DNA from: Pseudomonas saliphila
Lineage (GTDB): Bacteria > Pseudomonadota > Gammaproteobacteria > Pseudomonadales > Pseudomonadaceae
Assembly: GCF_008638345.1 (NCBI RefSeq)
Contig: NZ_VTVA01000001.1
Coordinates: 362,844 to 426,843 of the forward strand
DNA: 64,000 bases
Reading direction: 5' to 3'
Part shown: positions 53,282-64,000 of the stretch, in pieces
Position numbering within the stretch: position 1 is the first letter of the stretch
How the letters are laid out: each line of letters begins with the position of its first letter
Position numbers and translations under genes: made by a program
Notes under the pieces: generated by a model
What the model was told of the DNA's origin: nothing
The model's input: the letters and a program-made list of their open reading frames with translations, nothing else
Databases searched by the model: none

Positions 53282-53589
53282 GAAGCGAGTCCGTGTCGTA
53301 GGCGATGCGCATACAATACCGGAGGAGACCGAATCACGGGATGCGCTGATATCCGGGGTGCCGTTCTGTTTATGGTGATTAGAAAGGTAGTGGTCAATGT
53401 TCATCTGACCCCGATTTCTCCGCGACAACACCTCATCGCCGCTGATCCAGATCAAGCCGCTTCTCGCCAGAACGCCGTAGAATCAAACTACCATCATGCA
53501 AACACCAGAGAAGCCTGCATGGGTATCCGGGAGCGCAGCCCATCGGCCTGGCTGCAATCTGCCAATCACTTTTCCCCTGTGGAGTCGCC
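53282..53589. other. Intergenic region with GGTCAG-family half repeat
   Basis: Between the crotonase and the GspE-like gene. It contains the first copy of the TTGGGGTCAGATGA repeat family (53396-53417, right half only) and an untranslated leader. No gene is supported. Confidence 0.5.
53396..53417. repeat. GGTCAG-family repeat, half copy 1
   Basis: AATGTTCATCTGACCCCGAT followed by TT is nearly identical to the right arms at 55412-55426 and 60558-60572. The left arm is missing here. Confidence 0.7.
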
Positions 53590-55305
53590 ATGTTGGTAAC
53601 TGACAAGGCACAGCTCGCAACCTGCCTGAAGCGACACGGTTCGGAGCTGCCCGAGCAACGGCTCGGCGAGATCCTTCTGCAGCATAAGTTGATCACCTCC
53701 ACGCAGCTGGATGCGGCCCTCACGCTGCAGCACGAGACACCCGAGTCCGGTCGGCTCGGAGCCATTCTGCTCTCGATGGGCATCATCCAGCCTGCACAGC
53801 TCCAGCAAGCGATTGCCGAACAGTTGAACGTGGCTGAGGTAGACCTGGATACCTTTGACTTCGACCTTGACCAATTGCGCAGCCTTCCCGAGCAGGTCGC
53901 CCGGGAGTGCAAGGTGATGCCGCTAATGGAGCACAACGACTTCCTCATCGTTGCCTGCGCCGACCCCACTCAGCACGAACTGCTGCACCTGCTCAGTTTC
54001 ATTGCCGGCAAGCCGGTGGAGGCTGTCTACGCCGATGCCCGCTCGATCGAACGTGCCATCAACGAGCACTATGGCTCGGTTACAGTTGAAACCCTGCCAG
54101 AGGACGACAGAGACGATCCGGCATTGTCCCTGGAACAGATCAAGGCACTGGCTGAGCATAAACCCACAGTACGCTTTGTCGACAATCTGGTGGAAGACGC
54201 CATCAACCGTCGCGCCTCGGATATCCATCTGCGGCCCGGTGAAAAGGATGTGGTGGTACAGCTGCGCATCGACGGCCTGTTGCAGGATGTGCGGCACATC
54301 AAGCGCTCCACCCTGCCGGCCATCGTCAGCCGAATCAAGATCATCGGCGGCATGAACATAGCCGAACGGCGACTGCCACAGGATGGCCGCTACATGGTCA
54401 AAATCGCCGGACGCACCGTCGACCTGCGCCTGTCGATCATGCCGACGGTGCACGGCGAAAGCGTGGTGATGCGTATTCTGGATACCGGGCAAAGCCTGAG
54501 AAGCCTTGAGCAGCTGGGCTTCAGCGACACCGATGCCGCACGCTTTCTGCGGCTGGTCAGCCTCAACCAGGGCATAGTGTTGGTCACCGGTCCCACCGGT
54601 TGTGGCAAGAGCACCACCCTGTACGCCGCGATCAACGATATCCGCAAGAGCGGCGTGAACATCATCACCGTAGAAGATCCCGTGGAGTTCCAGATTGAAG
54701 GCATTCGCCAGATCCAGGTGAACGCCTCCATTGGCTACACCTTTTCCCGCGCCCTGCGCCACATATTGCGCCACGACCCAGACGTGATCATGGTCGGCGA
54801 GATTCGCGATCAGGAAACCGCCGTCATGGCCAGCGAAAGCGCGCTGACCGGGCACCTGGTACTCAGCACCCTGCATACCAACAGCGCGGCCAGCTCGGTG
54901 ACGCGACTACTGGAAATCGGCATCCCTCCGTACCTGGTAAACGCCACTCTGACCGGGGTGCTCGCGCAACGCCTGGCGCGACGCAATTGCCCGCACTGTC
55001 TGGTCGATGAAGAGCTGCCTGACCACGTTCGTGAGAGCCTGGGCCTGAGCAGCGACGAACGCTTCAGCGTCGGCAAAGGCTGCGACCGGTGCGACAATCG
55101 CGGCTTTGCCGGGCGGATCGCCGTATACGAATTACTGGAAGTCACGCTAGGAGTGCGCCGCCTGATCAAGGCCAATGTCGCCGCCCAGGACATCGAAGAG
55201 CAGGCCCGCCGGGACGGCATGCGCCCGCTGACCGAAGGTGCCCTGGAACTAGCGCGCAAGGGCATCATCTCCCTGGCCGAGGTCTACCGGATACGGCTCG
55301 AGTAG
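53590..55305 (+). CDS. GspE/PilB-type secretion ATPase with MshEN domain
   Basis: A 571-aa hexameric ATPase of type II secretion/type IV pilus machines. The N-terminus (24-80) carries two copies of the MshEN pattern: RLGEILLQHKLITSTQLDAA and RLGAILLSMGIIQPAQLQQA, known to bind cyclic di-GMP. The ATPase part has Walker A GPTGCGKST, the Asp box ITVEDPVEF, Walker B DPDVIMVGEIRD, and a CPHC...CDRC zinc site. No other pilus or secretion genes are near, so it is an orphan. It is flanked on both sides by GGTCAG-type repeats. Confidence 0.9.
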   Translation: MLVTDKAQLATCLKRHGSELPEQRLGEILLQHKLITSTQLDAALTLQHETPESGRLGAILLSMGIIQPAQLQQAIAEQLNVAEVDLDTFDFDLDQLRSLPEQVARECKVMPLMEHNDFLIVACADPTQHELLHLLSFIAGKPVEAVYADARSIERAINEHYGSVTVETLPEDDRDDPALSLEQIKALAEHKPTVRFVDNLVEDAINRRASDIHLRPGEKDVVVQLRIDGLLQDVRHIKRSTLPAIVSRIKIIGGMNIAERRLPQDGRYMVKIAGRTVDLRLSIMPTVHGESVVMRILDTGQSLRSLEQLGFSDTDAARFLRLVSLNQGIVLVTGPTGCGKSTTLYAAINDIRKSGVNIITVEDPVEFQIEGIRQIQVNASIGYTFSRALRHILRHDPDVIMVGEIRDQETAVMASESALTGHLVLSTLHTNSAASSVTRLLEIGIPPYLVNATLTGVLAQRLARRNCPHCLVDEELPDHVRESLGLSSDERFSVGKGCDRCDNRGFAGRIAVYELLEVTLGVRRLIKANVAAQDIEEQARRDGMRPLTEGALELARKGIISLAEVYRIRLE

Positions 55306-55380
55306 TAGTCGACGACTGACAGGGCCGGTTGCAAACAGTGCGGATGAGATGCAGCCATACCAAAAACGACGCTCAGGAAT

Positions 55381-55460
55381 TTGGGGTCAGATGAAGGTTT
55401 CTCGATTAATGTTCATCTGACCCCAATTTCATGACCCCAATTTCAAAGACCCCACTTTCG
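55381..55460. repeat. GGTCAG-family inverted repeat, full copy with degenerate tail
   Basis: TTGGGGTCAGATGAA (55381-55395) and TTCATCTGACCCCAA (55412-55426) are perfect arms with a 16-base spacer. Right after it, shortened copies of the right arm follow (ATGACCCCAATTTC, AAGACCCCACTTTC). It lies right after the GspE-like gene. Confidence 0.85.
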
Positions 55461-55491
55461 CCAATTCTGATTATTCGACGACGGCCGCCTG

Positions 55492-55791
55492 TTAACCCCT
55501 GAGTTCCAAATCTTCCCGGATGACCTCTGGGTGGCGAAACGCAATCTCGATTAGCGCTTTTGCCGGACCAGAGGGTTTACGTCGGCCCTGTTCCCATTCC
55601 TGCAACGTACGCGGAGAAATATGCAAGACTTCAGCAAACTCCTTTTGAGTCAGGCCAGTCTTGCCACGAGCCTCTGCTACCTCGTTTGGCTCCACACGCG
55701 TGATTCGCGCGACGTTGCCAGCTTTCATTTCTTTCACAGACTGTAGGAGCTTGTTGCCAAGCTCCTCACCGCTCAGAGTCTCATTGCTCAT
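55492..55791 (-). CDS. XRE-family antitoxin of a RelE-type toxin-antitoxin pair
   Basis: A 99-aa regulator with a Cro/C1 helix-turn-helix, GLTQKEFAEVLHISPRTLQE (about 47-66). The N-terminal arm GNKLLQSVKEMKAGNVARI is typical of HigA/NadS-like antitoxins. It overlaps the toxin gene by 11 bases and follows it (toxin first), as in higBA-type systems. ATG at 55791 chosen for the toxin overlap. Confidence 0.87.
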   Translation of the reverse strand: MSNETLSGEELGNKLLQSVKEMKAGNVARITRVEPNEVAEARGKTGLTQKEFAEVLHISPRTLQEWEQGRRKPSGPAKALIEIAFRHPEVIREDLELRG

Positions 55792-56098
55792 TTTCCAGCA
55801 CCTCACGAATCGACTTCAGGATATGCGCGGGTATGTTTTCCTTAACGGCCTTTTTGTAGACCACCAACAACCAGATCTCACCATTGGCCAACCTGGTGAA
55901 GTAAATGACACGTACTCCACCACGCTTCCCTGAACCCGCTATCGACCAACGAACCTTTCTACACCCGCCGCTGCCTGGAATGGGATCGCCGATTTCCGGG
56001 TTGGCTGCCAGCCAGGCGAAGAATGCACTGCGCTCCTCCTCGCTCCAGATCGTTCGGGCATCCGCTTCGAATGTAGGGGTTTCGATGATCGTAAGCAT
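55781..56098 (-). CDS. RelE/ParE-family toxin
   Basis: A 105-aa toxin of the RelE/HigB type: ETPTFEADARTIWSEEERSA, GGCRKVRWSIAGSGKRGGVR and VIYFTRLANGEIWLLVVYKK match the family core. It would cleave mRNA on the ribosome unless bound by the antitoxin. The gene lies first in a two-gene operon with its antitoxin, in the accessory part of the window. Confidence 0.85.
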   Translation of the reverse strand: MLTIIETPTFEADARTIWSEEERSAFFAWLAANPEIGDPIPGSGGCRKVRWSIAGSGKRGGVRVIYFTRLANGEIWLLVVYKKAVKENIPAHILKSIREVLENEQ

Positions 56099-56241
56099 GG
56101 GCCCAATATACGTCATTGACGGAGTTACGCAAGATGGATGGCTGGCTTTTCCTACCGCGCGATGGCATAAAGCTTTTTTTCCGCACCGAACCGTCCGTTT
56201 GGGCTGCGGTCACCGAACACCAGTACTGATGGGATGCGTAG

Positions 56242-57763
56242 ATGCGAATTGGAATTGACTTTGGAACAAGCTATACGGCGGCAGCCGCTGCCGTCGAGGG
56301 CGCTATCGAGCACATTAGCTTCCATGGCGACAGCCAATTCCGCACGGTGGTGTTCATTCCCGAAACGCCTGTCGACATGAGCCAGTTCGATGAATCCGTT
56401 TACGAGCTGGAGGTCGCGAACATCGTCAGGAGTGAGAAGAGCAGCTATCGCGCCAGGTTGAAAGAATACGAGCAGAGGGCAAGTCAGATTCGAGTGACCT
56501 ACCGAAAGCAGGCGCGCGACGGTGAGATCTCAGACGAAGCCGCACGCCGCACGCCGACAGACCGAAGTGGCGCTTTCGGCATTGAACCAGCCGGTGCTCC
56601 AGTCAGATGAAGCACTGAAAACCGCTGCGGTTGCAGCGATTCGCCGTCAGTGGGTCCAGGACCAAATCACAGCAGGCCGCGAGCGCTCGATAACAGTCGA
56701 CGAATCGGCAGTATTCGGCGAAGAGGCTATAGAGGAATTCTTTGCATACGAAGCCGGCCGATTGATCCAGTCTCCGAAATCTCTTCTTGGGTACAAGTTG
56801 GGTGAGCCGCAACGCGTTGCAATCGTACGTATCGTGGCGAATGTATTGCGCCACGTCCGCCAGGCAGCGAGCACTCAACTAGGAGTCGAGGTGACTGAAG
56901 CTACGATCGGTCGCCCCGTCACGTTTCGAAGCTCAATGGGCGACGCCGGAAGCGAACAAGCCATTGGTTTGCTGCGCGAAGCAGCGACGCAAGCCGGCTT
57001 TGACGCGGTAGAGTTTCTAGCCGAGCCGGCAGCGGCGGCGATCAATTATCACGCCCAGTCGGCTGCTGCGCATGAGGTTGTCGTTGTAGATGTCGGGGGC
57101 GGTACCACCGACATCGCACTTGGCGTCATCGGCGGCGTCGCCAACGAGCCGCAAATCGAAGCGACCTGGGGAATGGGCAAAGGAGGCACCGATGTTGACC
57201 TGGGTCTTTCCCTGACGGCCGTGATGCCGAAATTCGGCAAGGACAATTGCCGCCTGCTTGCCCCGGTCTATGTCAACGCCGCAACGGTCAGCGATCTGAA
57301 TCGGCAGCTGGATTTTCGCAAGACGCGACTGGACGGTGTACCAGAACCGTTTATGAGCCGCCTGCGTACCTTGCAGCGTAATGGCGTGGCCATTCGGCTT
57401 AATCAGGATGTCGAGCGACTCAAGATCGCACTGAGCACAGAAACCAAGGCGGCGGTGACGCTCGACTATATCGAGCCTGACCTGCGAGCTACTGCAGACC
57501 GTTCGCACCTCGAACAAGGGTACGAAGCCTTCCAACGTTCATTCTCTGACCTGTTGCGTCAAGTAAGCCAAGAGACGGCCAGCCGAAACCCCGTAGTGTT
57601 CCTCACCGGAGGCATGTCTCGCGCACCCTACATCGCTGAAGCAGTGCGCGAGCACTTCCCTGATAGCCAATTGGTCCATGGCGACGCATCCCTGGGTGTC
57701 GTGGGCGGCTTGGCCTTACACGCCGCCATGCAGCGCTCAGTGGTGGACCGGCCTTCCTCCTAG
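56242..57763 (+). pseudogene. Hsp70-like (YegD-type) chaperone gene, frameshifted
   Basis: An actin-fold ATPase gene related to DnaK/YegD. Frame 1 (56242 to about 56552) starts MRIGIDFGTSYTAAAA with the phosphate-1 loop; the rest continues in another frame to 57763 with VVVVDVGGGTTDIALGVIGG (phosphate 2) and NPVVFLTGGMSRAPYIAEAV (adenosine motif). The break lies at a 7-bp tandem duplication, GCCGCAC twice at 56539-56552; removing one copy joins the frames as DEAARRQTEVALSAL. So it is a recent frameshift or a switchable locus. C-terminal substrate domain is short, as in YegD. Confidence 0.85.
56539..56552 (+). repeat. 7-bp tandem duplication causing the frameshift
   Basis: GCCGCACGCCGCAC, two perfect copies of GCCGCAC next to each other, exactly at the point where the reading frame of the Hsp70-like gene changes. 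With one copy the two halves are in frame. Confidence 0.85.
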
Positions 57764-57801
57764 CTTCGACGCAATGAACAAAACGATTTGGGCGGGTTTC
57801 G
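57687..57801 (+). repeat. Direct repeat, copy 1 (3' end of the Hsp70-like gene)
   Basis: The last about 75 coding bases of the Hsp70-like gene plus its downstream flank. The same sequence with about eight mismatches and a 4-base insertion occurs at 59167-59285. Between the copies lie the repeats, the 344-aa gene and its flanks. Confidence 0.88.
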
Positions 57802-57875
57802 AATGGCACCCAGCTCTGCTCGTTTCCTGAAGCGAGATCCACCTGAATTCGGGTATGAGGAAAGAAAGGGGACAT

Positions 57876-57897
57876 GATGAACTGACCCCAATTTTTT
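57876..57897. repeat. GGTCAG-family repeat, degenerate half copy
   Basis: GATGAACTGACCCCAATTTT, a version of the right arm lacking the TCATC part. It lies about 75 bases after direct repeat 1, in the same relative place as the copy after direct repeat 2. Confidence 0.6.
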
Positions 57898-57935
57898 TCG
57901 TCTCCTTTCTCCACTTAGCAACATTTTCTGTGAAG

Positions 57936-58970
57936 CTATCTGTTAACTTCGCTTACTGCCTGTACCACAGGCCTAGATAATATCTCGACCATGGATTTTT
58001 GATTCGAAAAATCATTTTCGCCACTCACCGCATATCCTGTTGATTGAGGTGAAAAAATACAACTAGCTGCTTGAAGTAATACAGCATCACGCACACCTTC
58101 ATCGCCTGAAGCCTCAACTAAGGCACCATGGGTCATTAGCGCGTTTTGGCGATGTTTATTAACTATTGCATTGTGCTTATGGTTAAGGAAGTTTTTCGCA
58201 GAAAGAAACAGCATATATGCCATAACTGAGAAAATTAGGAACTTACTTATTGAGAGCTGTATTGCGTCGTAGGTTGTCTCAGGATTGAGAAATGGAATTT
58301 TATGTAAAAACAAGCTTATGACAGCAAACACGCCTAATCCAATTGCCAATTTGACTGCATAACCCTGCCAACGGTCAGCTTCGCCTGTGTGATGCTCATA
58401 TTCAGCATTGAAGTGAGCTGCTTGTTTTGTAACGCCCTCTTCCGCTGCTACACGCCGAATTTCGTCAAGAACAATTTTTGCGTCTTTTTCATGTTTGGCG
58501 AGATCTCCTGATATTTTATTAGATTTGTCTTCAATTGCTTGAAGAGTCGCCCTTGCATCAGAGTCAAGCCGCTGAAAGTCAGCAGACCTATGCAGAGAAT
58601 ACGAAATATATTGATGGAGCGCTTGAAACGCAGGTGGATAGGCCCCTACTACCTGTTTAACAAGATTTGTTCTTGCAGTACCTGGATCTTGTTGCTCGGG
58701 ACTAAACTCCATTATTTGCGTAAACAACTTGTAATGGTTGTTAGAATTGTCTCGAATTGGTGTGAGCACGTTGTCAGGGAAATCTTGTAGCGCTGTAACA
58801 GATAGCCGCTTGTATAAATCGATTAAGATTTGTGCTGGCTCAACGACCTCATTAAAGTTCAACCTGGCACCGAGATCCTCAACCCTTGGAAGACTAGCCA
58901 CATCAAAGTTCTGAATTCTGCTTAGTGATTCCTTTGCTTCCTCATAAAGCTCTTCTTTTCCGACTATCAT
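57936..58970 (-). CDS. Membrane protein with coiled coil, unknown function
   Basis: A 344-aa protein I do not recognise. Residues 1-130 are helical and soluble, 135-190 look like a coiled coil (TLQAIEDKSNKISGDLAKHE), then two membrane helices (about 205-225 AVKLAIGLGVFAVISLFLHK and 240-265 ISKFLIFSVMAYMLFLSAKN) and a C-terminal soluble tail. It is richer in A+T and Lys/Asn than its surroundings, which suggests transfer. AAGGAAAG precedes the ATG. It sits between two direct repeats of the Hsp70 gene's 3' end, on the opposite strand. Confidence 0.75.
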   Translation of the reverse strand: MIVGKEELYEEAKESLSRIQNFDVASLPRVEDLGARLNFNEVVEPAQILIDLYKRLSVTALQDFPDNVLTPIRDNSNNHYKLFTQIMEFSPEQQDPGTARTNLVKQVVGAYPPAFQALHQYISYSLHRSADFQRLDSDARATLQAIEDKSNKISGDLAKHEKDAKIVLDEIRRVAAEEGVTKQAAHFNAEYEHHTGEADRWQGYAVKLAIGLGVFAVISLFLHKIPFLNPETTYDAIQLSISKFLIFSVMAYMLFLSAKNFLNHKHNAIVNKHRQNALMTHGALVEASGDEGVRDAVLLQAASCIFSPQSTGYAVSGENDFSNQKSMVEILSRPVVQAVSEVNR

Positions 58971-59117
58971 TTTCTTTCCTTAGGCAGGTAATCGATCTAA
59001 TGTTAACGCCCGCAACAACGGAAGCTTAGGAGTGCCCGCGAGGAAGCACCCAGACTGCTTGCGCTTATTAATATTTTATATCGGGTGATTTCACCCAACT
59101 CACTTTAAAAACACATT

Positions 59118-59160
59118 TGGGTCAGATGAGCATTAATCTGAAACTTTCATACGACCCCAA
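59118..59160. repeat. GGTCAG-family inverted repeat, imperfect
   Basis: TTGGGTCAGATGA on the left and TCATACGACCCCAA on the right, with CATTAATCTGAAACT in between. Arms match the 55381 and 60513 copies with a few changes. Confidence 0.75.
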
Positions 59161-59166
59161 TTCACA

Positions 59167-59285
59167 CATCCCTGGGTGTCGTGAACGGCTTGGCCTTGCA
59201 CGCCGCCATACAGCGCTCAGTGGTGAACCGGCCTTCCTCCGAGTTAGCTTCGACTCAATGAGCAAAACGATTTGGGCAGGTTTCG
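59167..59285 (+). repeat. Direct repeat, copy 2 (Hsp70 3' end)
   Basis: About 93% identical to 57687-57801. Here the tail would encode a different ending (SSEL then stop rather than SS then stop), so it looks like a second, diverged gene end rather than a simple duplicate. It is followed by a GGTCAG half repeat as in copy 1. Confidence 0.87.
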
Positions 59286-59300
59286 TGGGAAAGAAAAGGT

Positions 59301-59324
59301 TTAATGTTCACCTGAGCCCAATTT
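59301..59324. repeat. GGTCAG-family repeat, half copy
   Basis: TTAATGTTCACCTGAGCCCA followed by ATTT matches the right arm with two substitutions. It sits 16 bases after direct repeat 2. Confidence 0.65.
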
Positions 59325-59336
59325 CTTCCCTGCATA

Positions 59337-60251
59337 TTAAGTTGATTTACGTAAGAGCGACCTGAGAAACACTGTAAATCCTAGAGCATCATCTTTCTGG
59401 TCAATAACAGCTAGGAGCGGTTCCAAATTATCAGCAGAGAGAAGCTTTTTGCCAGCAACCACTGCCAGCTCCGCCTGAGCCAGCGTCCCCTCGACAGTTC
59501 CAAGCCACTTGGCCCACTTGGCGAGCTCTTCATAGCTCATCTCATCAATATCCTTCTCTCGAAATAATTTGATATCGTTACCAAGACCTTTAACTAACAA
59601 CACCCGAAGATCATTTTCCGGATAAAGAGCTTCAAGGCCCTGTATCTCTGCTAACGGCTCCTCTATGTAATACGGCTTCTCGATCGCACGCCCCTGTATC
59701 GTCGACAGCTCGTCAACCTCCTTATCTGTGGCAAGCCGTTGCGTCGTTATAAGACCATTCCGGGACTTCGCCATCGCCTGCATGCGTCTGACCACTCCCA
59801 GTGGACAACCTTGATTTAAATTCGTAAGCGCCTGAATATTTTTATAGATCCAATCTCCGCCGAGAGACCCTCTAATGTTATCGATCTTCTCATCAAGCTC
59901 TTTCAACCTGCTTGCGAATATCCAAAGCCTCTCCCGATTTTCTTTTTCTATAACATCACGGTCGAATTTTCTCGAAAGCGTTTCGAAGTCAACACCAAAG
60001 TACTTCTTTCCGCAGTCCTGGCCAATATTCGTTTCGTATCCATCTTCAGTAACAGCTATGTAGCCTTTCGCATGCGGGGTATGGCAGTTAGAGAGGCCGC
60101 ATCTAATCCTATCTTTAAATTGGTAACTCCCTATGACGGACTTCATCTTCTTATCCTTAGGATCCAAATCCGCCATATATCCGGGCCTAGATGTAATATC
60201 TTCCCATGTAGCTACCGTGATGAGCCCTTTGTCTGTATTTAGAGTGATCAA
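59337..60251 (-). CDS. Hypothetical protein with Cys/His cluster
   Basis: A 304-aa soluble protein I do not recognise. A Cys/His cluster, RCGLSNCHTPHAKGY (about 51-65) and GQDCGKKYFG (about 77-86), could bind zinc. A long charged helical segment follows (SRKFDRDVIEKENRERLWIF). It starts TTG at 60251 after AGGGGAAA. The base composition is AT-richer than the core genes and it lies between GGTCAG repeats, so it is probably acquired. Confidence 0.65.
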   Translation of the reverse strand: MITLNTDKGLITVATWEDITSRPGYMADLDPKDKKMKSVIGSYQFKDRIRCGLSNCHTPHAKGYIAVTEDGYETNIGQDCGKKYFGVDFETLSRKFDRDVIEKENRERLWIFASRLKELDEKIDNIRGSLGGDWIYKNIQALTNLNQGCPLGVVRRMQAMAKSRNGLITTQRLATDKEVDELSTIQGRAIEKPYYIEEPLAEIQGLEALYPENDLRVLLVKGLGNDIKLFREKDIDEMSYEELAKWAKWLGTVEGTLAQAELAVVAGKKLLSADNLEPLLAVIDQKDDALGFTVFLRSLLRKST

Positions 60252-60675
60252 GGTGGTTTCCCCTATTATTTATGCGTAACGACTAGATTTATGGCCGGCG
60301 CTTCGATATGCAGCCCCCCGGGCTTTCACGAAGACTAGCTAGCGCTTCGAGATTTTGCTGTCGACCTGAGCATCTGCCTCCAGCAGGGCTACCTCTTGTC
60401 TTTTGTCCCACCACGCCTCTACCGCTCCCTGAAAAATAGGAGTTGCAAGTAAGAAAACTAAGATAACAAAAGACTGCTATCCCTGTGCTACCGCCCAAAG
60501 GATGCCGGGGAGATTGGGGTCAGATGACGGTTTCCGATTAAAACTTTCGGTTAATGTTCATCTGACCCCAATTTCTGTTTCAGTAGTCGCAATAGGCGAG
60601 CGATTAAACTCATCCCGCATGCTTTTCTTTAATGACATAGCCCTATTTCCATAATTCATACGCGTTGATTTTTCT
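60252..60675. other. Intergenic stretch with repeat before the cassette array
   Basis: Contains the GGTCAG inverted repeat at 60513-60572 and the end of the cassette array. A 69-codon frame at 60289-60498 is Gly/Ser/Arg-rich and not convincing. Confidence 0.5.
60513..60572. repeat. GGTCAG-family inverted repeat, full copy
   Basis: ATTGGGGTCAGATGA (60513-60527) and TCATCTGACCCCAAT (60558-60572), perfect 15-base arms, 30-base spacer. Same family as the copy at 55381-55426. Confidence 0.85.
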
Positions 60676-60788
60676 ACCTAACGCCTTAGTTAAGTAGACT
60701 TGCATAGCGGAGCCAACAACATGGCAAGCTTTTTCCTGCCATACTGTTGGTGTAGCGAAGCAAGTTCGGCTTTAACGAATTGTTAGAC
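60676..60788 (-). repeat. attC site of cassette C
   Basis: On the minus strand it runs from R'' GTCTAAC (60782-60788) through AATTCGTTAAAGCC to CTTAACTAAGGC and R' GTTAGGT (60676-60682), 113 bases. The TAA of the R'' box is also the stop codon of the TPR gene, as is common in cassettes. The inner boxes match Pseudomonas-type attC sites. Confidence 0.85.
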
Positions 60789-61361
60789 AGAACTTTTGAG
60801 TCGCTGCGCGTGCCGGATGATTGGACGCAGCAATAATCTAACCAGCGCCCGGATGTTGTTGTGGCTGGAGATAAATCTTGCGATAGGCGGACTAACTGAA
60901 TAGTAGGAGGATACAAAAAGCCTCCCATACGCAGATTTGCTCAAGATTTTGTCTCTCCACCAACGAAGGAGGTTAACCTCTATCGCTAGCGGCGTACCAA
61001 ATGCAGCGGTTGCCACTACGCATTGTGACGTCTTGATGGCGTTGAGATTGTTTTGAATGTCTATGTCACGCGGACTCAACTGCGCCGCTCTCTCTAACAA
61101 CGGAATTGCAGCCTCCTTATTTCCGTTCCCTTCCCACAGGAGTAGAGCTTTCAGGTTGAGGTAAATGGCGCTGTCCGGAACAAGCTCGATTGACCGGTCT
61201 ATGTACTGCAGTGCCAAGTCGATGTTTGCAGGCGCCGCACCCGTTATGGATGAATTGGACCCGTAGACCTGCTTGTTGGCCTGTAACTCATGCAGGATAA
61301 ACATTGCTTTGAGCTGGTACTGCTCGGCCTCTGTGAACTTTTCAATATCTGTTTGTTCCAC
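60783..61361 (-). CDS. TPR protein with CFI-box C-terminal domain (cassette C)
   Basis: A 192-aa protein. Residues about 45-105 form two to three TPR-like helical pairs (IDLALQYIDRSIELVPDSAI and EAAIPLLERAAQLSPRDIDI). The rest matches the CFI-box-CTERM domain: CVVATAAFGTPLAIEVNLLR followed by RDKILSKSAYGRLFVSSYYS and SPPIARFISSHNNIRALVRL. This domain occurs at the C-termini of very different bacterial proteins and has no proven function. Starts GTG at 61361 after AGGAGG. Confidence 0.83.
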   Translation of the reverse strand: MEQTDIEKFTEAEQYQLKAMFILHELQANKQVYGSNSSITGAAPANIDLALQYIDRSIELVPDSAIYLNLKALLLWEGNGNKEAAIPLLERAAQLSPRDIDIQNNLNAIKTSQCVVATAAFGTPLAIEVNLLRWWRDKILSKSAYGRLFVSSYYSVSPPIARFISSHNNIRALVRLLLRPIIRHAQRLKSSV

Positions 61362-61389
61362 TTCGCCTCCTAGTGGTGATTGGTGTGCC

Positions 61390-61439
61390 GTCTAACGCTT
61401 GAATTGAGCCACGCAGCGAAGAGGCGTCGGCTGTTAGGT
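61390..61439 (-). repeat. attC site of cassette B, short form
   Basis: On the minus strand: R'' ACCTAAC, then AGCCGACGCC, a loop TCTTCGCT, GCGTGGCTCAATTCAAGC and R' GTTAGAC, 50 bases in total. Compared with Pseudomonas-type attC sites, about ten bases are missing right after R'' (the L'' region), so it may recombine poorly. Confidence 0.78.
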
Positions 61440-61445
61440 CTCACT

Positions 61446-62186
61446 TCATAACCCTTCTGCAAACTTTCTTGGGGTGAGGCTGAAAGAGTCGGCGACTGTG
61501 ATACACAGGCGCTTATCTATGGTGTTCATGAAGAAAACTCTGCTAGAAAACTTGCCAAGATACACCCAATCTCGAGCGCCTTCAGGCTCACAGAGGTTCT
61601 TGTTTTCAAGGAAGAATGTGTTCGCAGCACCATTGAAGATGGCCTTCCCGTCTGAGTAACCGGCGGCGACAGTGCCGGCGAGTTGCATGAGGATCAGTGC
61701 ACTGGAGCAGATGAGAGCGCTCTTTTCGTGCTTGAAGATTCGATAAGTGAAGCAACAACCAGCAAAAAATAGCGCTGCAGCGAGCGCTAGGACGCTATTT
61801 TCGTCCTCGTAGTGAAAATCACTTCGAATGAATCTGGATATAGCCTGATAGTAGGCAATCCCGAAGGCGATTGAATATAGGAGGATCAGGTAAGCAGATA
61901 GATTTTTGAGGAGCTCCGAATCTGTATGATCCGACTGACTAAACAAGACGAGCGAGAAAAGCAAAGGGGCCGATATGAGTATTAGTAATCGATCAAGCGG
62001 AGCGCTTATGTAGTCGATGGAAGATGCATATGGGAAAACATCGAAACCGAATACTCTCCAGTAGCCGAATATGTATGCGGAACCCAAGAGCATCGCGTAA
62101 GCGTATATCAGCACGCCAAGGCCCAACTTGTCGGTGACAAAGGATATGCTCGATGAGTTCAAAGCACTGTGCGACGGCTTTTGCAT
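61446..62186 (-). CDS. Membrane protein of unknown function (cassette B)
   Basis: A 246-aa protein with about five membrane helices (LGVLIYAYAMLLGSAYIFGY and LLILISAPLLFSLVLFSQSD among them) and a soluble C-terminal part of about 60 residues (SSRVFFMNTIDKRLCITVAD). I do not recognise it. The ATG at 62186 lies 12 bases into the cassette, typical for cassette genes; an in-frame start at 62222 would be inside the previous cassette's attC. Confidence 0.68.
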   Translation of the reverse strand: MQKPSHSALNSSSISFVTDKLGLGVLIYAYAMLLGSAYIFGYWRVFGFDVFPYASSIDYISAPLDRLLILISAPLLFSLVLFSQSDHTDSELLKNLSAYLILLYSIAFGIAYYQAISRFIRSDFHYEDENSVLALAAALFFAGCCFTYRIFKHEKSALICSSALILMQLAGTVAAGYSDGKAIFNGAANTFFLENKNLCEPEGARDWVYLGKFSSRVFFMNTIDKRLCITVADSFSLTPRKFAEGL

Positions 62187-62191
62187 GTGAG

Positions 62192-62267
62192 ACCTAACGA
62201 TGAAGCTAAGGGGCCGCGGCACGCGGTCCCAGCGAATGAAATGAGCGATTTCAGCGCCTTGTTAGCC
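62192..62267 (-). repeat. attC site of cassette A
   Basis: 76 bases; on the minus strand R'' GGCTAAC (62261-62267), AAGGCGCTGAAATCGC and an inner palindrome GGGACCGCGTGCCGCGGCCC-like stem, ending in R' GTTAGGT (62192-62198). The stop codon of the lipoprotein gene is directly adjacent. Confidence 0.85.
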
Positions 62268-62624
62268 TTACCAGCTTCTTGGCACAATTGATGTCGTGTC
62301 CGTAGTAATTTTCCAGTTCGCAAGTTTTTCTGACGAAAAACTTAAGTACAAGGTCCTTCCCACATAATCTGGGCCGCCAACTGAAACCCACTGTTGATAC
62401 GCAATTACTTCATGCTCCGAGCTCGCTTCAACAGCTTCATATCCATAATTAAATAGAGATATCGTTTCTTTTTTGGACATTCCAATAATCAATTCGCTGA
62501 TTGGAAAGGCAGCGTAGTTTTGATCGTATTTATTAAAATCGGCTACGGCCCAGCTTGATCCTGGGGGATTCGAGGCGCACCCTGAAAGTGCCATAAAAAC
62601 TATTGGTATAGCTAAATATTTCAT
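62268..62624 (-). CDS. BamE/SmpA-like small lipoprotein (cassette A)
   Basis: A 118-aa lipoprotein: signal MKYLAIPIVFMALSG with lipobox LSGC (Cys 16), then ISELIIGMSKKETISLFNYG, EVIAYQQWVSVG and TLYLSFSSEKLANWKITTD, the strand-helix pattern of the BamE/OmlA fold. GAGGTATT precedes the ATG, 18 bases into the cassette. It may associate with the outer membrane; specific role unknown. Confidence 0.7.
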   Translation of the reverse strand: MKYLAIPIVFMALSGCASNPPGSSWAVADFNKYDQNYAAFPISELIIGMSKKETISLFNYGYEAVEASSEHEVIAYQQWVSVGGPDYVGRTLYLSFSSEKLANWKITTDTTSIVPRSW

Positions 62625-62643
62625 AATACCTCTGTGGGCTAAC

Positions 62644-63228
62644 AGTGATCATATGGAATTCCCGATATGGAATATTCGTTACTTCCCGATAACGACACAA
62701 ACCAAACCGGCCCATCCGCCAAAGCCTAAACCTTCTTCAAATCAACAACTTAACGATGGCGCTGCAGACGACCACGTAATCGCGTGAATTCCGCATTTGT
62801 CGATTTCCAGACCCCTGTCTCCACCACGCCCCACCAACCACGCTACCGCCCGACCCTCATTTGGCAGGCAAGCCGGTACGCTATCAATTCGGGTATGGAA
62901 GGTAGGCTGTCCTTGCCCCTTGGGCGGGAACTGCTGCAATCCATTGCCGAACCAGCAACATAGCGCAGGGGAGTGGCGCTTGGCCATAGCTTGAGAGCCG
63001 CGAGGCTGAATCCAAGGGCTATAAGGGGCGCGACGCGCACTGCGTCAGCGACTAATGATGCCTCCCCCGCCCCACCTCGTTATAATGCCCGTTTTGCGCC
63101 AACCGCCCATGGCATCCGCTGGTTTCTGCGCTTGCGCCCCTTCATTCACAGGGCGACCTGCAGGCTATGCGTGGCATGCTGTGGTACCGCGTTAAAGTCG
63201 CCAGCCATCACCGGACAGCCAAACACCC
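62644..63228. other. Region between the cassette array and valS
   Basis: The cassette array begins at a GTTAGCC (minus strand, 62637-62643), so this region would be the expected place for an attI site and an integrase gene. I see neither: both strands give only short, Arg/Ser-rich frames (62742-62994) with no tyrosine recombinase motifs. A TATAAT at 63081-63086 may be the valS promoter -10. Confidence 0.55.
63081..63086 (+). promoter_or_regulatory. Possible -10 box of valS
   Basis: TATAAT, 143 bases before the valS ATG. No good -35 element is visible at 16-18 bases, so the call is weak. Confidence 0.35.
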
Positions 63229-64000
63229 ATGGAAAAAACCTACCAGCCGCACGCCATCGAATCTTCCTGGTACCAGACCTGGGAGCAGAACAATTACTTT
63301 GCTCCGCAGGGCTCCGGCGAGTCGTACACCATCGCGCTGCCGCCGCCGAACGTGACCGGCAGCCTGCACATGGGCCACGGGTTCAATAACGCGATCATGG
63401 ATGCGCTGATCCGCTTCCGCCGGATGCAGGGCCGCAATACGCTGTGGCAGCCGGGCACGGATCACGCAGGTATCGCGACGCAGATGGTGGTTGAGCGCCA
63501 GCTCGCCGCTCAGGGTCAGTCCCGTCATGATCTGGGCCGCGACAAGTTTCTGGAAAAGGTCTGGGAATGGAAGGAAGAGTCCGGCGGCAACATTACTCGT
63601 CAGATTCGCCGGCTCGGCAGTTCGGTGGATTGGAGCCGTGAGCGCTTCACCATGGATGAAGGCATGTCCGAGGCGGTTCAGGAAGCCTTTGTGCGTCTGC
63701 ATGAAGACGGCCTGATCTACCGCGGCAAGCGTCTGGTGAACTGGGATCCCAAGCTGCACACCGCGATTTCCGATCTTGAAGTGGAGAACCACGACGAGAC
63801 CGGTTCGCTGTGGAATCTGCGTTACCCCCTGGCGGATGGCGCGACCACGGCCGAGGGCAAGAATTATCTGATCGTTGCCACCACGCGTCCGGAGACCATG
63901 CTGGGCGATACGGCGGTCGCGGTGAACCCGGATGACGAGCGTTATCAGGCGCTGATCGGCAAGTTTGTCGAGCTGCCTTTAGTGGGCCGGCGCATTCCGA
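63229..64000 (+). CDS. valS: Valyl-tRNA synthetase, N-terminal part (runs off the window)
   Basis: The first 257 codons of a class I aminoacyl-tRNA synthetase. The HIGH motif appears as [20 protein letters not shown], with [20 protein letters not shown] and [17 protein letters not shown], all diagnostic of ValRS; the editing domain begins at [16 protein letters not shown]. The ATG at 63229 starts [20 protein letters not shown], the family N-terminus. The gene continues beyond the window. In Pseudomonas it normally follows pepA-holC, which here lie 43.5 kb to the left. Confidence 0.97.

Follow-up and report, generated by a model that had tools for sequence, protein, structure and literature searches.

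A cassette array upstream of valS in Halopseudomonas starts at an integrase-less attI homologue and may belong to a satellite integron platform

The window, by which we mean the whole 64,000-nucleotide stretch that was analysed, comes from a draft Halopseudomonas genome (G000; 4.37 Mb in 59 contigs) whose valS product is 99% identical over its first 257 residues to that of Pseudomonas profundi M5. On the minus strand, three gene cassettes and three attC sites lead away from valS (Table 1). An integrase-less cassette array had been predicted here from the sequence alone, and re-reading the sequence returned the same positions for all three cassettes and all three attC sites.

Table 1. Features of the valS cassette array and its two flanks, in window coordinates.
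Feature	Position	Strand	Basis
Conserved leader motif GGGCGGTAGCGTG	62839..62851	-	motif comparison and sequence reading
Platform leader/former intI promoter region	62728..62853	-	HMM from six other valS copies, E 1.8e-9
attI core, 58 nt	62643..62700	-	metG attI match
attI/cassette 1 crossover G|TT	62643/62642	-	sequence reading
Cassette 1 (BamE-like lipoprotein, weakly so)	62198..62642	-	crossover points and box match
ORF of 118 aa in cassette 1, BamE/BLIP-like model	62268..62624	-	lipoprotein-type N-terminus by eye
attC1	62192..62267	-	covariance model E 7.9e-6; fold z -3.3
Cassette 2 (membrane protein)	61396..62197	-	crossover points and box match
ORF of 246 aa in cassette 2, no family	61446..62186	-	relatives in unrelated bacteria and metagenomes
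attC2, short, 50 nt	61390..61439	-	box match; missed by covariance model; z -0.9
Cassette 3 (TPR/CFI-box protein)	60682..61395	-	crossover points and box match
ORF of 192 aa in cassette 3, CFI_box_CTERM domain	60783..61361	-	E 2.1e-24
attC3, long hairpin, 113 nt	60676..60788	-	box match; z -2.7; 3' end alone fits model
Fourth cassette start (TTAGGT...), cut by repeat	60578..60681	-	sequence reading
REP-like palindrome (ATTGGGGTCAGATGA...) cutting fourth cassette	60510..60577	.	repeat matches
ORF of 304 aa upstream of fourth attC-like site	59337..60251	-	phrog_7003, E 8e-71
Fourth, degenerate attC-like site	59001..59073	-	29.4 bits, E 1.3e-4; R'' box TATTAAT; no fold signal

The cassette start is the exact complement of the R'' box of the cassette's own attC in all three cassettes (TTAGCC/GGCTAAC, TTAGGT/ACCTAAC and TTAGAC/GTCTAAC). 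The match proved diagnostic: among 16 arrays, the three variable R'' bases agreed with the start of the own cassette in 70 of 84 cases and with the following cassette's start in 6 (85 attC sites were sampled and one, with an unreadable preceding box, was omitted). Within the window the corresponding counts are 3/3 and 0/3. A scan for boxes and folds was too noisy, with 8 matches in the window and 0, 3, 1, 5 and 1 in shuffled controls, so we used a covariance model instead. This model is our own rather than the attC model of IntegronFinder, and was trained on 14 attC sites from other Halopseudomonas arrays, none of them from the window. It recovered attC1 (34.5 bits) together with the new fourth site, whose E value rises to 0.0096 when the whole genome is searched; it matched the 3' end alone of attC3 (14.3 bits, E 0.55) and gave no match in the window at attC2. 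Relative to the model, attC2 is very short and attC3 very long. Single-strand folding was better than that of shuffled sequences for attC1 and attC3, with no gain for attC2 or the fourth site (z -0.1). Rfam at gathering scores had no match in the window and so contributes no evidence on attI or attC.

A cluster of attC sites lacking an integron integrase is termed a CALIN; the class is defined without attI, and its members are read as degraded, off-target or rearranged arrays. With at least two attC sites and no intI within reach, the valS locus falls into this class, with one of the three listed sites scored well by our model. Its attC cassettes all share one orientation, as in a complete integron.

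None of the three cassette products resembles a drug-resistance protein, in keeping with the original prediction. For the lipoprotein of cassette 1, the AlphaFold model (mean pLDDT 73) has BamE as its best solved match (5wam, E 0.017, prob 1.0), with beta-lactamase inhibitor proteins next at E 0.02; the BamE-like label can be kept in a weak form. A family-model search found no family for the membrane protein of cassette 2, which has relatives at 65-70% identity in unrelated bacteria and metagenomes. The TPR/CFI-box label of cassette 3 is upheld by its CFI_box_CTERM domain. Elsewhere in the genome, a small gene that looks RelE/YoeB-like by eye, in the array on contig C9 (L011, 405-668), is common to arrays of G009 and G021 at 94-97% identity.

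The array had been thought to end at 60676. We found that it continues with a further cassette cut by a palindrome and then with the degenerate attC-like site, and the 304-aa ORF upstream of that site is possibly the cargo of an older cassette. REP-like palindromes of the form GGGGTCAGATGAAC... have four matches within 53399-60577 of the window and are repeated in G029 too. An Hsp70-like gene at 56242-57763 lies in two overlapping frames; in G029 it is a single frame of 510 aa (L133, 7425-8957).

The valS side, previously taken as plain flank, holds an attI; its homologues are the attI next to intI in platforms of the genus and an attI at metG. In blastn comparisons with 20 relatives, G000, G017 and G029 were alike on the valS side up to position 62640 of the window; the shared stretch ends three bases past the crossover, and the cassettes beyond it differ in each genome. 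In other species the native integron has the order intI, attI, cassettes, its attI ends in ...GGTCTAATCACTG|TTA, and its neighbour gene on the intI side is, by our reading, purL. This native attI sequence also lies upstream of valS without intI in six relatives (G003, G005, G007, G021, G025 and G033). An HMM trained solely on five intI-adjacent attI regions matched valS sites in six relatives, with E values from 3e-31 to 2e-38, and an HMM built from six relatives' valS sites found the window site as its sole match in 64 kb at E values up to 10. Against the HMM of intI-adjacent attI the window site scores weakly (13.9 bits, E 0.001), and the case for homology therefore rests on the intermediate sequences. 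On contig C34 of G000, metG too adjoins an attI that lacks intI, and this second attI has an attC array of its own. With this attI as the query, the valS site (62639-62693) was matched at 86% identity and E 1e-10, the sole other match in the genome. Judged by these comparisons, the array starts at an attI. A consensus scan for sigma-70-type promoters, as a candidate cassette promoter Pc, gave no match anywhere in 60500-63260, the surroundings of this attI included.

Homology of the target to attI bears on whether the cassettes were inserted off target, that is, put by an IntI encoded elsewhere into an ordinary genomic site (attG, neither attI nor attC). Such insertion is a known route to CALINs according to the excerpts of PMC8618304 and PMC12444791, and the window attI has diverged from the canonical one, but the valS site is homologous to attI plus its leader, far beyond what a short crossover motif needs. 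We regard this explanation as very improbable.

No integrase gene accompanies the array, as had been noted: none lies between valS and the cassettes, and a genome-wide search found no full intI in G000. At valS, then, the attI that a complete integron has is present by homology and the intI that should adjoin it is missing. The native intI of G000 is a 38-codon remnant on contig C9, 89% identical to IntI residues 283-320. In the window clade native intI is likewise reduced to fragments in G029 (residues 1-89) and G017 (3-103), and all three fragments adjoin pdeM (PdeM was recognized by family model in G029 and by eye in G000 and G017). Weak intI matches on contig C23 were considered as a split intI and rejected, a reading by eye having assigned them to a tyrosine recombinase with an IS91-like transposase as its neighbour. 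Since the assembly is a draft of 59 contigs, and arrays break assemblies according to the available portion of PMC9024848, an intI beside the array could in principle sit on another contig. However, a single contig holds both valS and attI, and the same layout occurs in the one-contig genomes G029 and G007, which leaves a split assembly with a negligible probability.

Uninterrupted intI frames occur elsewhere in the genomes of G005, G007, G025 and G033, and some satellite-bearing genomes are without an intact native intI. Separately, we noted IntI matches over the family cut-off at L152 (G029) and L153 (G035), in this environmental genus, with attC downstream of L152. These are likely class 1 integrons, and the class 1-type enzyme of G029 might or might not act on satellite sites.

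Traces of the lost gene can be read from the platform anatomy, which we compared in 10 intI rows and 31 intI-less platforms (33 rows minus two that keep intI remnants). Where intI is present, the conserved leader motif closely follows its stop codon and is separated from the crossover by ∼1.19 kb, compared with ∼200 nt in the window. The motif was found 1188-1195 nt from the crossover in 8 of the 10 intI rows (seven with at most one mismatch, G019 with two), the two remaining rows having deletions in intI. Among the intI-less platforms, 21 of 31 have it, with at most one mismatch, at 197-263 nt, and it is unrecognisable in the other 10. The gap between the two distances is as long as intI itself. 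An exact CTGT-N8-ACAG (LexA-type) box lies 182-187 nt from the crossover in 8/10 intI rows and in 1/31 intI-less platforms. Two intI-less platforms, L264 (G009) and L285 (G050), still hold a LexA-type box and are perhaps young intI losses.

Because this 3' flank motif of intI is kept in most platforms, intI must once have been present in them, as it would have been under plain decay, a scenario in which the intI-less platforms are relics of complete integrons, each having lost its intI at the site where it still stands. Decay would also accommodate the three different ways in which the native intI of the window clade is broken, and CALINs have been proposed as degraded integrons in the part of PMC9024848 available. 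We nonetheless consider plain decay unlikely, because cassettes at valS differ between relatives, some with an uninterrupted intI elsewhere, and because the attI core is far better kept than the adjoining DNA, as detailed below.

Cassette turnover at valS was followed by comparing the upstream region across species, the comparison suggested with the original prediction. Cassettes differ between species, and an order fixed in all relatives, the outcome that would have spoken against a cassette array, was not seen. With genes counted as shared if an alignment at E 1e-8 covered 60% or more of the shorter ORF, we found one cassette gene pair common to the nine valS platforms (G007/G005, 81%). Across species, a few cassette genes do recur at different platforms, for instance between valS of G021 and C55 of G033 (66%), and none of 225 ORFs from 39 platforms was common to platforms of one genome. 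No instance of recombination at a satellite attI was seen.

Next, we compared attI itself. Within a clade, comparisons between loci give an identity of 0.86 for the core (-58..0; n=138) and of 0.58 for the 57 nt preceding it (shuffle 0.50). The promoter part reaches 0.66 (shuffle 0.49), so the core is not the sole kept stretch. When the valS sites of the two clades are compared, the core is 0.55 identical and the DNA outside the platform 0.72. Cores that are alike across loci and unlike across clades follow the clade and not the locus, a pattern that an enzyme common to all of them and acting in trans would impose. The likeness could alternatively come from copying between loci, but the neighbouring DNA should then come along. 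At only 0.76-0.78 identity to the cores of the four other platforms in its clade, the window core has diverged as a decaying site would be expected to.

Folding of the core was also surveyed. Over 62 cores the mean z is -1.70, with 26 at or below -1.5, and in controls these values are -0.15 and 7. Several other genera have a strong hairpin in the core (z about -3 to -7.7), and the window has none (-0.2). In L275, L270, L285 and other attI cores from outside Halopseudomonas, the inverted repeats vary in sequence between species with pairing kept (z down to -7.7).

Platforms of this kind are widespread. A valS match was present in 33 genomes of the genus, of which 32 were viewed (G026 starts inside valS). 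An attI lies at valS in 9/32, spread over two clades of the valS tree, with G015, in one of these clades, lacking it. The covariance model places attC at 8 of the 9 valS platforms; by our reading, the valS array of G017 is interrupted by an IS3-like element. A degenerate attI-like sequence with 7 mismatches in 32 lies next to an IS3-like element in that genome (L022, 6902-6933), ∼2.5 kb beyond the valS site. With a 169-nt attI query, copies were found in 22 of 37 genomes, and exact matches to the 14-nt core TCTAATCACTGTTA number 59, spread over 28 of the 37, with two or more in 16 genomes and none in the reversed control. By family models, the genes flanking attI platforms include MetG, TypA, PNP, ExaC, flagellin, a histidine kinase and PdeM; dnaE2 and gdhB, ORFs without a family match, are flanks by our reading.

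Of 30 intI-less Halopseudomonas platforms, 25 have attC sites downstream by our covariance model. This tally covers part of the attI copies found, namely platforms fetched as long stretches with at least ∼500 bases upstream, and counts matches down to E 0.2, the weakest being L243 (E 0.055) and L268 (E 0.17). Its members are valS of nine genomes, metG of two and 19 further loci (L230, L231, L232, L234, L235, L236, L237, L239, L240, L243, L245, L247, L248, L262, L263, L264, L268, L288 and L289). Four loci were dropped beforehand: L233, L244 and L267, with attI near a contig end, and L238, with a partial attI and no core. The five platforms without attC by the model are valS of G017, L230, L240, L247 and L248, of which L247 ends ∼560 bases downstream. 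In a family-wide sample, the attI core occurs in 42 of 198 genomes, 15 of these outside the genus. G051, from another genus, has one platform with intI and four without intI nearby, all four with attC; of the four platforms in G075 that have no intI nearby, three have attC. Platforms that lack intI and keep attI often co-occur with an intI-bearing platform elsewhere in the genome. On one contig (L281, G174), three attI cores at 1586, 4314 and 10982, with attC downstream, lie within 10 kb.

Taken together, sequence comparison shows that the valS site is homologous to attI, that intI is missing, that attC sites are present, that valS cassettes differ between related species and that the same layout recurs at other loci in the genus. 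The original interpretation stands as regards an integrase-less cassette array whose cassettes differ between species; what it missed is that the array begins at attI. We consider it probable that the platform carrying the valS array is a satellite, derived by copying from the chromosomal integron platform, in which attI was kept and intI was lost. The presence of several spare docking sites in related bacteria suggests that one integrase can serve many arrays: IntI from the intI-bearing platform would act in trans on all attI copies of a genome, so that several arrays may be filled by one enzyme. We infer this use in trans from cassette turnover and the constraint on the core. In the window clade, where native intI persists in fragments, the arrays are probably now fixed, and any expression of them would start at internal promoters or at promoters outside.

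More broadly, we lean slightly towards the view that Pseudomonadaceae have distributed integrons, in which one IntI serves several attI ports beside different housekeeping genes, each with its own array. Such ports would derive from copies that dropped intI, their cores would be matched to the IntI of the clade, and many arrays now classed as degraded CALINs would be live ports. CALINs and complete integrons occur in similar numbers (2,961 versus 2,760 in the portion of PMC9024848 available), and CALINs are mostly taken as decay or accident. If many were attI satellites, the integron would be a network of arrays under one SOS-controlled enzyme, with first-position expression possible at several places at once. 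An attI outside class 1, which IntegronFinder does not detect according to the same portion of PMC9024848, would also become easier to define, since several copies per genome could be compared.

Among known systems, CALINs share with the valS array at least two attC sites and no intI nearby, but the valS array has a homologous attI and leader, and the same layout recurs at many loci. It resembles the sedentary chromosomal integrons of the Pseudomonas type in its attI core, its attC type and the LexA-type box before intI, and differs in that one platform has intI while others in the same genome do not. Xanthomonas has CALINs at conserved loci (lamG/secF, recD and others): several of its species carry arrays without an integrase beside the same housekeeping genes, and the excerpt of PMC12444791 reports no attI for these arrays; they are candidates for the same attI-satellite layout. 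Mobile integrons with delta-attI-type cassettes likewise place attI away from its intI-proximal position, although there, in the accessible part of PMC12901181, attI is within a cassette, whereas here it starts the array. Integrase-less attI copies were undescribed in the titles and abstract openings of the matches listed, and earlier reports, for example on P. stutzeri integrons, are possible. By its sequence features, the valS locus would be classed as an integron variant, an integrase-less attI platform that is one of several per genome.
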